From NCBI GenBank assembly GCA_937899835.1, contig CALCCE010000049.1:1-64000 (forward strand): a stretch of DNA of 64,000 nucleotides, read 5' to 3'. This document shows, in pieces, positions 34,724 to 40,212 of this stretch. A model generated the notes under the pieces. The model was not told the DNA's origin and did not search any database. It saw nothing but the letters and a program-made list of their open reading frames with translations. Each line of letters opens with the position of its first letter. Position 1 is the first letter of the stretch. This stretch comes from an uncultured Flavobacteriales bacterium (lineage in GTDB: Bacteria > Bacteroidota > Bacteroidia > Flavobacteriales_G > Salibacteraceae). The position numbers were made by a program, and so were the translations under genes.

Positions 34724-35983
34724 GTGCTATACTACTTGTTTGAATACTTAGAAACGGTCAATTTCCCGGGAGCAGGGGTGTTTCAGTACATCTCTTTCCG
34801 GGCGGCTTTGGCGATCATTTTTTCGCTGATCATTTCCATGCTGTTTGGCAAGCGCATCATTCAGTTGCTCCAAAAACAGCAGGTAGGCGAGATCATTCGC
34901 GACCTCGGGCTGCAAGGGCAAATTGAAAAGCAAGGCACGCCAACTATGGGCGGGCTCATCATTCTGGCGGCCATCATTTTGCCTACGTTGTTGCTGGCCC
35001 GTTTGGACAATGTTTACATCATCCTCATGCTGGTGTCTACCGTTTGGCTGGGTGCGATTGGTTTTATCGACGATTACATCAAAGTTTTTAAGAAGAACAA
35101 AAAAGGCCTTGCAGGAAAATTTAAAGTAGTAGGTCAGGTTGGCATCGGCTTGATTGCCGGGTCTATTCTTTATTTCAGCGATGATGTGGTGCTCCGCGAA
35201 AAGGTGGTGACCGATGATGCTACGGTGATTGAAGCCAGTGCCTTGAGCTACGATAACGAAAAGGCAGGAGAAGATGGAAAAACCGTGGCCTGGGTAACTT
35301 CCAAAGCGGCTCGTACCACCATTCCTTTCGTAAAAAACAACGAGTTTGATTACGCCTGGCTTATCTCCTGGGTAGGAGACAACGCTGCCGGGTTGGTGTG
35401 GATCATCTTTTTACCCATTGTCATTTTAATTGTTACCTCCGTTTCCAACGGGGCCAACATGACCGATGGCCTCGACGGCCTGGCCACGGGCACGTCGGCC
35501 ATTATCGGCGTCACACTGGGCATATTCGCTTATGTAAGCGGCAACTACATTTTTGCCGACTACCTGAACATCATGTACATCCCCGATTCGGCGGAGCTCG
35601 TGATTTTCATTGCTGCCTTTGTAGGAGCCTGTGTTGGCTTCCTGTGGTACAACTCTTACCCGGCTCAGGTATTCATGGGCGATACGGGAAGCCTCGCCCT
35701 GGGCGGCATCATTGCCGTGTTTGCCATTGCCATTCGAAAAGAACTGTTGATCCCCATCCTGTGCGGAGTTTTTCTCATGGAAAATCTCTCTGTCATGATG
35801 CAGGTGGGCTATTTCAAATATACCAAGCGCAAGTACGGGGAAGGCAGAAGAATTTTCAAAATGGCGCCTTTGCACCACCACTACCAGAAACTCGGCTACC
35901 ACGAAGCAAAAATCGTGTCGCGCTTCTGGATTGTGGGCCTGGCTTTCGCCTTGCTGTCGGTGGTGACCTTGAAATTGCGGTAG
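34724..35983 (+). CDS. mraY: Phospho-MurNAc-pentapeptide transferase MraY
   Basis: A 419-residue polytopic membrane enzyme starting with GTG at 34724 ([10 protein letters not shown], the usual start in this phylum). It shows the QGTPTMGG-like loop [31 protein letters not shown], the [12 protein letters not shown] motif and [10 protein letters not shown] near the end. It makes lipid I. It is longer than the E. coli enzyme because of a hydrophilic insertion of about 60 residues near positions 160-215, typical of Bacteroidota. Confidence 0.96.
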
Positions 35984-35985
35984 CG

Positions 35986-37323
35986 ATGGCAGGAAGCATC
36001 GCCATTTTGGGAGCTGGAGAAAGCGGGGTAGGATCCGCCATTCTGGCGCAAAAAAAAGGATTCGACGTGTTGGTTTCCGACAAGGGAACCATAGCGGAGA
36101 AATACAAGAACGTTCTTTTAGAGTATGAAATCCGGTTTGAGGAAGGAAAGCATTCCGAAGCACTCATCCTGGAAGCCGAAGAGGTGATCAAGAGTCCTGG
36201 TATTCCCGACGAGGTGCCGCTGATAAAGCAGCTACACGCCCAAGGAACACCGGTGATCTCTGAGATCGAATTTGCCGGCCGCTATACCGAAGCCCACATC
36301 ACGGGCATCACGGGAAGCAACGGCAAAACCACTACCACACTGCTCACGCACCACATTTTGTCCAAAGCAGGACTCAATGTAGGCGTAGCGGGAAACGTTG
36401 GGCAAAGTTTTGCCTGGCAGGTAGCAGAAACCGAGCGTGACTATTACGTGCTCGAACTCAGCAGCTTTCAATTGGATGGGATGTACGATTTCCGATGCAA
36501 CACGGCGGTGTTGCTCAACATTACCCCCGACCACTTGGATCGTTATGGCAACGATTTTTCGCGCTATGCAGCCGCAAAGTTTCGCATTCTGCAAAACCAG
36601 CGGCCGGAAGATGCATTCGTGTATTGCCTCGACGATAAGGTGATCGAACAGGGAATGAAACAACGGAAAGTCGTTGCAAGGCACTTTCCCTTCTCGCTCG
36701 ACCATGAGGTGGAGACCGGAGCTTATGTAGCACACGACCAACTAAATATATCGACCAATAACCAAACCTTTACCATGTCAATCAGGGACTTAGCCCTTCA
36801 GGGCAAACACAACTTGCACGATACCATGGCTGCCGGCATATCGGGCCGCATCCTGGAACTGCGCAAAGACGTCATCCGCGACAGTCTTTCGGATTTTCAG
36901 AATGTAGAACACCGCCTGGAATTCGTCACCAAAGTACACGGCATTTCATTCGTCAACGACAGCAAGGCAACCAACGTGAATTCCACCTGGTATGCCCTCG
37001 AATCTGTTAACAATCCGGTGATCTGGATCGTGGGCGGAGTCGACAAAGGCAACGACTACGGTCAGTTGATGGAGCTGGTCAAAGAAAATGTAAAAGCCAT
37101 CATTTGCCTGGGGCGCGACAACAGCAAACTGCACGCTGTTTTCGGAGAGGTCAAAGAGTTGGTCTTCGATGCCGGGTCGATGTACGAAGCGGTAGGCATT
37201 GCTTACCAAATCGGTGAGCGGGGCGATACTGTATTGCTCTCACCTGCTTGCGCCAGTTTCGATTTGTTCGAAAATTTTGAAGATCGCGGACGACAATTCA
37301 AAGAAGTTGTTCGCTCACTATAG
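35986..37323 (+). CDS. murD: UDP-MurNAc-L-alanine:D-glutamate ligase MurD
   Basis: About 445 residues from the ATG at 35986, two bases after mraY; the frame itself is open much further upstream inside mraY. It has the N-terminal Rossmann GAGESGVGSA, the ATP loop GITGSNGKTTTTLL, the middle-domain TPDHLDRYG, and a C-terminal domain with EHRLEF, NDSKATN, IVGGVDKGNDY and LLSPACASFD. All expected residues, including the D-Glu-binding Lys of GGVDKG, are present. So this gene is intact and can supply the activity without the extra domain gene that follows. Confidence 0.95.
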   Translation: MAGSIAILGAGESGVGSAILAQKKGFDVLVSDKGTIAEKYKNVLLEYEIRFEEGKHSEALILEAEEVIKSPGIPDEVPLIKQLHAQGTPVISEIEFAGRYTEAHITGITGSNGKTTTTLLTHHILSKAGLNVGVAGNVGQSFAWQVAETERDYYVLELSSFQLDGMYDFRCNTAVLLNITPDHLDRYGNDFSRYAAAKFRILQNQRPEDAFVYCLDDKVIEQGMKQRKVVARHFPFSLDHEVETGAYVAHDQLNISTNNQTFTMSIRDLALQGKHNLHDTMAAGISGRILELRKDVIRDSLSDFQNVEHRLEFVTKVHGISFVNDSKATNVNSTWYALESVNNPVIWIVGGVDKGNDYGQLMELVKENVKAIICLGRDNSKLHAVFGEVKELVFDAGSMYEAVGIAYQIGERGDTVLLSPACASFDLFENFEDRGRQFKEVVRSL

Positions 37324-37417: not shown

Positions 37418-37936
37418 ATGGAGTACAATGACCCAATTAACGTGAAGCGTACGGTAGCAGAAAACAAACTGGTACAGGCACGCCGTAAGAGTTTAGAGGA
37501 GTTTGGCAACATCGAGCACCGTTTAGAGCTGGTGGATGTGATCAACGGGGTAGACTACATCAATGATTCGAAAGCCACCGATGTCAACTCTACCTGGTAT
37601 TCCCTTTATTACATGAACCAACCGGTCGTTTGGATCATTGGGAATTCTGAATTGGAAACCGATTACTCGCTGTTCTCAGAGATTGCAATGGATAAGGTAA
37701 AGGCCATTGTTTGCCTGGGCGGCAGAAACGTGTTGATCAACAATGCCCTCCAAGGGAAAGTAGATACCATCACCGATGCTCATGATTTGGATGAGGCGGT
37801 TCGTTTGGCCAATTCACATACCGAAGAAGGAGACGTGGTGTTGTTTTCACCCGCTTGCTCCAGCTTCGACCTCTTTCAAAACTACAAAGACCGTGGGCAG
37901 CAGTTTCGCAAGTCGGTGAGCGATTTGAGGAAATAA
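37418..37936 (+). CDS. Stand-alone MurD C-terminal domain (paralogue of MurD domain 3)
   Basis: A 172-residue protein whose residues 25-171 align along the whole C-terminal domain of the adjacent MurD, with roughly half the positions identical by eye. EHRLE (33-37), NDSKATD (49-55) and FSPACSSFDLFQNYKDRG (143-160) are kept. The IVGGVDKG motif has become IIGNSELE, losing the D-glutamate-binding Lys, and the ATP-loop and UDP-binding domains are absent altogether. The first 24 residues (MEYNDPINVKRTVAENKLVQARRK) resemble nothing in MurD. It cannot be a ligase by itself. A regulator or partner of MurD or another Mur ligase is possible. It has a clean start and stop and sits 19 bp before ftsW, so it is not obvious debris. 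Confidence 0.85.
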   Translation: MEYNDPINVKRTVAENKLVQARRKSLEEFGNIEHRLELVDVINGVDYINDSKATDVNSTWYSLYYMNQPVVWIIGNSELETDYSLFSEIAMDKVKAIVCLGGRNVLINNALQGKVDTITDAHDLDEAVRLANSHTEEGDVVLFSPACSSFDLFQNYKDRGQQFRKSVSDLRK

Positions 37937-37955: not shown

Positions 37956-39122
37956 ATGGAAACGCTTTACAAACATATTAAAGGAGACAAAGCCATTTGG
38001 TTGGTCGTGCTGTTCCTGGCCATCGCGTCAACGCTGTTGGTCTACAGTTCAATCGTTACCCTGGCTTACCGTCACCATGGGGGAAATACTTTTTTCTACC
38101 TCCTGCGGCACGGTTTCTTTGTGTTTGCCGGAGTAGGGATTATCTACCTCGTCCATCGGATGAAGTATACCTACTTTTCGCGTTTGGCGCAGTTGGCATT
38201 GTACGCCTCCGGGCCGCTCTTGCTCATCACGCTGCTTTTTGGTGTCACCATCAACGGGGCCGCGCGTTGGCTCAACATTCCCATCATCAACCAGACTTTC
38301 CAAACTTCGGATTTTGCGAAACTGGCCTTGATGATGTTTCTCGCGCGGCGCATTTCGCAGAAGCAACCCGTTATCAACGATTGGACGAAATCAACGGTGC
38401 AAATCATTCTGCCCATTGTAATGGTGTGTGGTTTGATTTTACCGGCGGATTTGAGCACTTCAGCTCTGGTGTTTTTCTCCAGTCTTGTGCTCATGTTTGT
38501 GGGAGGAGTGCCGAAGAAACACCTGCTTGCGCTCATCGGCATCGGCATCATTAGCCTTACGCTGGTGTATGGCGTAGGCAAAGCCTTTCCCGGTTCGTTT
38601 GATCGCTTGGACACCTGGATTTCTCGTATCGAAAACTTTGGTGAGGGCGATAGTAAAGGCAACTACCAGATTGAGCAGAGTAAGATTGCAGCTGCCACCG
38701 GTGGATTTACTGGAAAGGGACCAGGAAACAGCACCCAAAGGCACTTTTTGCCGCACCCTTATTCCGATTTCATTTTTGCCATTGTGTTGGAAGAATACGG
38801 ATTGATTGGAGGGCTCGGGATGTTGTTGCTCTACCTGATCTTGTTTTTCCGGTGTGTGAAAATCGTGAATACCTGCCCCAAACACTTTGGGGCTTTGCTG
38901 GTTTTCGGCATCAGCTTCATGCTGGTGCTTCAGGCTTTTATCAACATGGGAGTAGCGGTAGACATCTTACCGGTAACCGGGCAGCCTTTGCCGCTGGTGA
39001 GTATGGGCGGAACCTCAATTTGGTTCACCTGTATTTCCATGGGTATCATTTTAAGCGTGAGCCGTAGCCTCGAACTGGAAACGGAAAACGTTAAATCTGG
39101 AAAGAACAATGTCGTCACCTAA
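37956..39122 (+). CDS. ftsW: Septal peptidoglycan polymerase FtsW (SEDS family)
   Basis: A 388-residue protein with about ten membrane helices. Typical SEDS segments are NGAARWLNIP (first loop), FQTSDFAKLALM, LPADLSTSALVFFSS, the large loop GEGDSKGNYQIEQSKIAAATGGFTGKGPGN, PHPYSDFIFAIVLEEYG and PLVSMGGTSIWFTC. It polymerises glycan strands with FtsI. It overlaps murG by 14 bp. Confidence 0.95.
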   Translation: METLYKHIKGDKAIWLVVLFLAIASTLLVYSSIVTLAYRHHGGNTFFYLLRHGFFVFAGVGIIYLVHRMKYTYFSRLAQLALYASGPLLLITLLFGVTINGAARWLNIPIINQTFQTSDFAKLALMMFLARRISQKQPVINDWTKSTVQIILPIVMVCGLILPADLSTSALVFFSSLVLMFVGGVPKKHLLALIGIGIISLTLVYGVGKAFPGSFDRLDTWISRIENFGEGDSKGNYQIEQSKIAAATGGFTGKGPGNSTQRHFLPHPYSDFIFAIVLEEYGLIGGLGMLLLYLILFFRCVKIVNTCPKHFGALLVFGISFMLVLQAFINMGVAVDILPVTGQPLPLVSMGGTSIWFTCISMGIILSVSRSLELETENVKSGKNNVVT

Positions 39123-40212
39123 AGTCATCATCAGCGGAGGGGGAACTGGCGGACATATTTTTCCAGCCATAGCCATTGCCAATGCCCTGAAGGAAATCAA
39201 TCCTTCCACCGACATTTTGTTTGTGGGGGCCAACGGCCGTATGGAAATGGAAAAGGTGCCGGCAGCCGGCTATCCGATTGAAGGCTTGTGGATCAGTGGC
39301 TTGCAACGCAAGTTGACCTTGAAAAACCTTGCTTTCCCTTTCAAATTGATGAGCAGCCTGATGCGTTCAGGGGCCATCATCAACCGCTTTCAACCCGATG
39401 TGGCGGTAGGCGTGGGCGGTTTTGCCAGTGGGCCATTGCTGAAAATGGCTACCCGCAAAAAGGTGCCTACCCTAATTCAGGAACAAAACTCTTATCCGGG
39501 CATCACCAATAAATTGCTCGGTGGTAAAGTGAAAAAGGTGTGCGTAGCCTATGATGGCATGGAACGCTTTTTTCCGAAAGAAAAAATCATCCTTACCGGC
39601 AATCCGGTGCGCAAGGAAGTAGTGATGCTCGAAGGCAAGCGGCAGCGGGCCCTGGAGCATTTCCATTTGCAAGCCGACCGGAAAACTTTGCTGGTGATCG
39701 GCGGAAGCCTTGGAGCACGCTCCATCAACGAGGCCATTCGCCCTTGCCTGGAAACCTTTCGACAGCGCAACATTCAGTTGATCTGGCAAACCGGCAAAAA
39801 CTACGTGGAAGAAGCCCGTGTGGCGACTGCCGGATTGGAAGAGTCGGGCATCAAAGCCCACACCTTCATCGAAAAGATGGACTATGCCTATGCCGCTGCT
39901 GATTTGGTGGTGAGCCGGGCCGGAGCCATTGCGGTGTCCGAATTGTGCCTTACGGCCAAACCCTGTGTGTTGGTGCCCTTTCCCTATGCTGCGGAAGATC
40001 ACCAAACCAAAAACGCCATGGCCCTGGTGAACCACCATGCGGCCTTGCTGGTGAAAGATACCGATGCCGGAGAGCAATTGGGCCCTTTGGTTTTAGACCT
40101 GATGGAAAACGACGAAAAACGCGATAAACTGGCGGCCCAAATTTCCGGTCTTGGATTCGAAGATTCGGCTCGGGTAATTGCCAATGAAGTATTGAAATTG
40201 ATTGAGGAATAA
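39109..40212 (+). CDS. murG: UDP-GlcNAc:lipid I N-acetylglucosaminyltransferase MurG
   Basis: A 367-residue GT-B enzyme with the glycine loop ISGGGTGGHIFPAIAIA, the second loop VGVGGFASGP, and the UDP-GlcNAc site VVSRAGAIAVSELCLTAKPCVLVPFPYAAEDHQTKNA. It adds GlcNAc to lipid I on the inner face of the membrane. Its stop is immediately followed by the murC start. Confidence 0.96.
   Translation: MSSPKVIISGGGTGGHIFPAIAIANALKEINPSTDILFVGANGRMEMEKVPAAGYPIEGLWISGLQRKLTLKNLAFPFKLMSSLMRSGAIINRFQPDVAVGVGGFASGPLLKMATRKKVPTLIQEQNSYPGITNKLLGGKVKKVCVAYDGMERFFPKEKIILTGNPVRKEVVMLEGKRQRALEHFHLQADRKTLLVIGGSLGARSINEAIRPCLETFRQRNIQLIWQTGKNYVEEARVATAGLEESGIKAHTFIEKMDYAYAAADLVVSRAGAIAVSELCLTAKPCVLVPFPYAAEDHQTKNAMALVNHHAALLVKDTDAGEQLGPLVLDLMENDEKRDKLAAQISGLGFEDSARVIANEVLKLIEE

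Follow-up and report, generated by a model that had tools for sequence, protein, structure and literature searches.

The closest described relative of the protein considered here is the MurD ligase (TIGR01087), whose gene is part of mraY-murD-ftsW-murG, among the best studied bacterial gene clusters. An extra conserved gene of this cluster in about 20 Bacteroidia family groups encodes a protein that shares with MurD the sequence and fold of domain 3 and the place in the operon, but has no domain 1, domain 2 or P-loop and has Lys348 replaced. The same type of domain was solved alone in the structure 3mvn (C-terminal domain of an Mpl-like ligase), although by its title it is a domain of a larger ligase and not the product of a separate gene. 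A Mur-ligase-like fold in a non-ligating complex is found in the plant plastid RNA polymerase structures 8ras, 8qma and 8r6s, where the matching chains are presumably the Mur-ligase-like subunits of the polymerase; this likeness is weak (TM 0.48-0.54), identity is 15-18%, and with another organism and another complex it is an analogy only. The Xanthomonas type MurD2/MurL pathway appears to be used by one of the Bacteroidia families described below, with MurL and MurD2 often fused, but the stand-alone domain is neither MurD2 nor MurL. A review names no Bacteroidota among the carriers of this pathway (PMC8788868). In the open-access papers found, a stand-alone MurD C-terminal domain was not described.

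The window, i.e. the whole stretch of 64,000 nucleotides that was analysed, contains the following features, all on the forward strand:

34724..35983, forward: mraY (open reading frame, gene order)
35986..37323, forward: murD, intact and full-length, 445 aa (open reading frame, profiles)
37418..37936, forward: gene for the stand-alone MurD domain 3, 172 aa (open reading frame, profile matches, conserved family)
37418..37483, forward: N-terminal extension and helix, residues 1-22, part new and part matching the MurD helix before domain 3 (alignment)
37514..37522, forward: EHR motif, E. coli MurD H301/R302 (sequence, residue alignment)
37562..37579, forward: NDSKAT motif, E. coli MurD N316-T321 (sequence, residue alignment)
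37640..37660, forward: GNSELET in place of GGVDKG(N), with loss of the D-Glu-binding Lys348 (alignment to own MurD, residue table)
37847..37870, forward: SPACSSFD motif with S415 kept (sequence, residue alignment)
37956..39122, forward: ftsW, 19 bp after the stand-alone gene (open reading frame, gene order)
39109..40212, forward: murG, overlapping ftsW (open reading frame, gene order)

The stand-alone frame, a separate ORF encoding MurD domain 3 only and called SA below, reads from ATG to TAA and is separated from murD by 94 bp and from ftsW by 19 bp. The five remaining frames across it have 5-12 stops and its GC3 of 0.59 matches that of its neighbours, in accordance with the clean frame between murD and ftsW described in an earlier note on this sequence. 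No promoter or terminator signals above chance were seen around the gene. Its product matches the whole Mur_ligase_C profile (Pfam PF02875, positions 1-127) at 38.9 bits, above the gathering cut-off of 28.4, while the TIGR01087 murD profile matches at positions 293-439 of 441 only, with 147 bits where the cut-off is 211.95. Among Pfam profiles Mur_ligase_M has no match, and the central ATP domain and the P-loop are absent. Residues 23-170 align without gaps to the C-terminus of the adjoining MurD (47% identity, E 3e-48), which is itself intact, with P-loop, GGVDKG and SPACASFD all present. Profiles, alignment and ORF reading thus agree with what the earlier note had claimed, a stand-alone MurD domain 3 beside an intact murD, without ATP loop and with GNSELET in place of GGVDKG. 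The alternative that we are dealing with a frameshifted murD is ruled out by the intact murD next to it. The "new 24-residue start" of the same note is only partly new: about the first 15 residues are, and the last part aligns with the MurD helix ILELRKDVIRDSLSDF minus four residues. A single helix is predicted for residues 6-28 with low confidence. The structure was predicted with a pLDDT of 85, with values above 90 for much the greater part of the core and an uncertain N-terminal helix, and its best PDB match is MurD domain 3, with a TM of about 0.70-0.76.

Residue roles were assigned from PMC4816537 and PMC3527612 and from general background on MurD, and counts in E. coli MurD numbering were made for 81 SAs and 105 MurDs. 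The D-Glu-binding Lys348 is found in just 9 of the 81 SAs and in 104 of the 105 MurDs, which supports the loss of this lysine noted earlier and, as far as sequence can tell, a probable non-catalytic role. R302 (48/81), K319 (49/81), T321 (52/81) and S415 (58/81) are likewise eroded in SAs, while each of them is present in 105/105 MurDs. The hinge residues H301 (74/81) and E304 (80/81) are strongly kept, and N316, P411, G426 and F429 are also retained; together with E304 these are probably mostly structural. The SA of the window has R302, D317, K319, T321, S415, the aromatic residue at 422 and the ATP-facing residues. The earlier statement that nucleotide- and peptide-facing residues are kept is therefore correct for this protein, but not for the family, in which they are eroded.

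Stand-alone homologues between murD and ftsW, for which the earlier note had proposed a search, exist in many Bacteroidia families. According to the profile tables a separate SA ORF is present in about 80-84 of 396 Bacteroidia genomes and in 20 of about 76 family groups (f numbers below; g and L numbers denote genera and loci of the genome sample). About 60 carrier loci were fetched and read, and the remaining carriers were counted from match numbers; named carriers are metagenome bins. Between murD and ftsW, ORFs of about 160-240 aa occur in f1, f3, f6, f10, f11, f13, f14, f21 and f25, and further in f28, f30, f32, f37, f41, f44, f46, f55 and f73. The primary loci read have the order mraY-murD-SA-ftsW-murG, with the exceptions of f42, where SA adjoins ftsW and murD is on a different contig, and f72, discussed below. 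In f3, a family of the same taxonomic order as the window, SA is 58-61% identical to that of the window. The window's own family has an SA-type ORF after murD in genera g1, g4, g7 and g13, and none in the ten others of the fourteen genera sampled. SA is dispensable in Bacteroidia that do not have the gene, these ten genera included. Elsewhere in the phylum, 68 genomes from classes other than Bacteroidia showed no SA; one look-alike in Ignavibacteriota (L057) was rejected as a split murD. We left out of the count four genomes in which the second match lies inside another large ORF (418-824 aa) and two with murD split between contigs. In 26 of 27 SA-less loci murD and ftsW are immediate neighbours, with gaps of -43 to 47 bp; the 27th, from a Saprospiraceae bin, has a BRO-N-like ORF of 299 aa between the two genes (L046:6488-7387). 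The murD/ftsW gap of f34 (genus g121; L209, L210, L211) holds a highly diverged SA-like ORF of about 120 aa (24-27 bits), so the family may reach below profile detection and some absences may be missed relatives.

In a tree built from domain-3 sequences alone, SAs and full-length MurDs are separated almost completely, with two label changes in the unconstrained tree. When all SAs were forced into one clade the fit was as good as that of the unconstrained tree (p-AU 0.66, not rejected), so that the single clade for which the earlier note proposed a test is possible. The SA of the window clusters with SAs of several families (100/99) and not with its own MurD. From this the duplication that gave rise to SA appears to be older than the families compared; a single origin would be compatible with the tree. 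Finite dN/dS estimates were obtained for 23 SA pairs and lie at 0.014-0.25 (Nei-Gojobori, dS often near saturation), which indicates purifying selection, the other property that the note had proposed to check; the pairs come from relatives of the window SA, whose own nearest relatives are too distant for a pair. The wide distribution, where the note's reading would have failed on fragments in single strains, and these dN/dS values, where it would have failed on values near 1, rule out a one-off fragment or pseudogene. Within a genome, SA mostly changes faster than domain 3 of MurD. The reverse is seen in f13 (L167-L171), where SA is more conserved than domain 3 of its own MurD and the latter groups with MurDs of the Saprospiraceae/Cyclobacteriaceae type; it is possible that murD was replaced there by transfer while SA stayed.

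The family f72 (41 genomes, 12 genera) is a natural experiment in which the enzyme is gone and its last domain retained. An SA-sized ORF is present in 40 of the 41 genomes and canonical MurD in none (0/41), the top full-length match reaching 99 bits where most other Bacteroidia have about 140-220. Gene order is mraY-SA-ftsW in all 21 loci read. Tested f72 genomes have MurL (20/20) and no MurI (0/20), whereas the 11 other SA carriers tested have MurI (11/11) and no MurL (0/11). The f72 ligase is a distant MurD2-like protein encoded elsewhere, which has its own domain 3 and is often fused to a MurL-like epimerase; the MurL-like part scores 257.8 bits with the NCBIfam MurL model, f72 matches being below the Xanthomonadales cut-off of that model. 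We infer MurL and MurD2 function from this similarity and from the missing MurI and MurD. The fused MurL-MurD2 proteins, of about 885-1138 aa, were found in several genera (L173:2267-4921, reverse strand; L195-L208).

Most f72 SAs start with a methionine that in the alignment falls on MSIHDLALQG, a conserved sequence in the linker between MurD domains 2 and 3. The first 22 residues score up to 20.4 bits on a profile of this linker, where the best of 828 shuffles reaches 8.6; many f72 SAs are above all or nearly all shuffles, and SAs outside f72 score at most 4.6 bits. In the tree, f72 domains group with full-length MurDs of other Bacteroidota (92/77), while a tree that unites them with the remaining SAs is not rejected (p-AU 0.27). 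Linker match and tree suggest an independent origin of the f72 domain, and a truncation of murD at its original site, leaving domain 3 when MurD2 and MurL took over, would be the simplest explanation. Purifying selection is seen here also, with dN/dS of 0.027-0.15 in nine pairs; one highly diverged pair gives 0.50.

We propose, with roughly an even chance of being right, that SA serves the membrane-proximal machinery (MurG/FtsW/MraY) as a docking subunit without catalytic function. The window gene would then be a non-catalytic, free-standing MurD domain 3, now a fixed part of the dcw cluster in many Bacteroidia. In these bacteria domain 3 of MurD would have a second role, to dock the cytoplasmic Mur pathway beside membrane-proximal MurG, FtsW and MraY. 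In most lineages, the window type, this role would have been split off by duplication of domain 3, while in f72 it would have been retained by in-place truncation of murD as MurD2/MurL took the chemistry. SA would act through partner binding rather than catalysis. Protein contact is the most likely way of working because the domain outlives the enzyme, and because fold and place are kept and ligand residues are not; it is also indicated by f42, in which SA stays with ftsW while murD is elsewhere. The neighbouring genes suggest MurG, FtsW or MraY as partners, and which of MurG and FtsW would come first is the least certain step. MurG is reported to bind MurD, MurE and MurF of Thermotoga maritima and was proposed as a scaffold (PMC6420597). 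Pairwise distances of SA, the fastest-evolving gene of the covariation set, track MurG (partial r 0.38) and not MurD (-0.20), and within f72 they correlate with FtsW (0.40) and MurG (0.25), in each case weakly and without species-tree control. A counterpoint is that f6, f46 and f42 have a second SA paralogue away from the dcw cluster, and the constant neighbours may also be a consequence of positional inertia. Among the three roles proposed in the earlier note, MurD regulator, precursor sensor and scaffold towards FtsW, the last fits these sequence patterns best. A wider proposal, that the MurD C-terminal domain has an old non-enzymatic function in Bacteroidota wall assembly which parted from catalysis on at least two occasions (by duplication and by in-place truncation), we hold more tentatively, somewhat short of an even chance. 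With f72 as a natural experiment, the proposal that Mur ligases also have a structural part in a membrane-bound precursor complex becomes directly testable on a minimal protein of 170 residues.

A regulator of MurD, either taking the position of MurD's own domain 3 on the central domain when this is loaded with nucleotide, or pairing with MurD, and so tuning its activity, would explain why SA is directly downstream of murD in nearly all carriers, why the hinge residues are so strongly kept and why the window SA has R302, D317 and K319. This role is weakened by f72, where the domain-3 protein persists although canonical MurD is lost, by the location of the f42 SA away from murD, by the absence of R302 and K319 in about 40% of SAs and by SA distances that do not follow those of MurD. 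It is possible in genomes that have MurD, but we consider it unlikely as the general explanation.

A little less likely still is a ligand sensor that would signal the precursor level to neighbouring enzymes on binding UDP-MurNAc-dipeptide, a different UDP-MurNAc peptide or a nucleotide. T321, S415, the aromatic residue at 422 and the ATP-facing residues of the window SA make it possible for the window type; for the family it is weakened by the eroded ligand residues (K348 missing in 72 of 81 SAs, and T321, S415, R302 and K319 each in 28-41%) and by the nature of the protein, a domain 3 that has neither domain 1 for UDP binding nor domain 2 for ATP.

Very improbable is a catalytic spare part, in which SA would supply domain 3 in trans to MurD or another Mur ligase: a few SAs retain the lysine motif (GGVDKGNDY in L114 of f28) and SA of f13 evolves more slowly than MurD domain 3, but most SAs have lost Lys348, neighbouring MurDs in the loci read are intact (Lys348 in 104/105), and f72 keeps domain 3 without canonical MurD while its MurD2 has its own. 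Equally improbable, and already disfavoured, is a functionless decaying duplicate that persists by chance or because it bridges murD and ftsW in translation, which would suit the fast evolution relative to MurD, the clean loss in many lineages and the very short, diverged copies of f34 but not the low dN/dS across many families, the fold residues conserved in all carriers and the retention in 12 genera of f72.

Several further forms of the domain were observed. In f73 a tandem pair of SA genes lies between murD and ftsW (L162:2064-3138, forward strand). The second paralogues outside the dcw cluster are more diverged (f6: L118, L119, L120, L213; f46: L098; f42: L165), and those of f6 and f46 adjoin an aldehyde-dehydrogenase-like gene. 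One f10 genome (G358) has an SA-like ORF with an extra zinc-ribbon-like N-terminus of the form CxxC...CxxC (L151:2173-2787, reverse strand).
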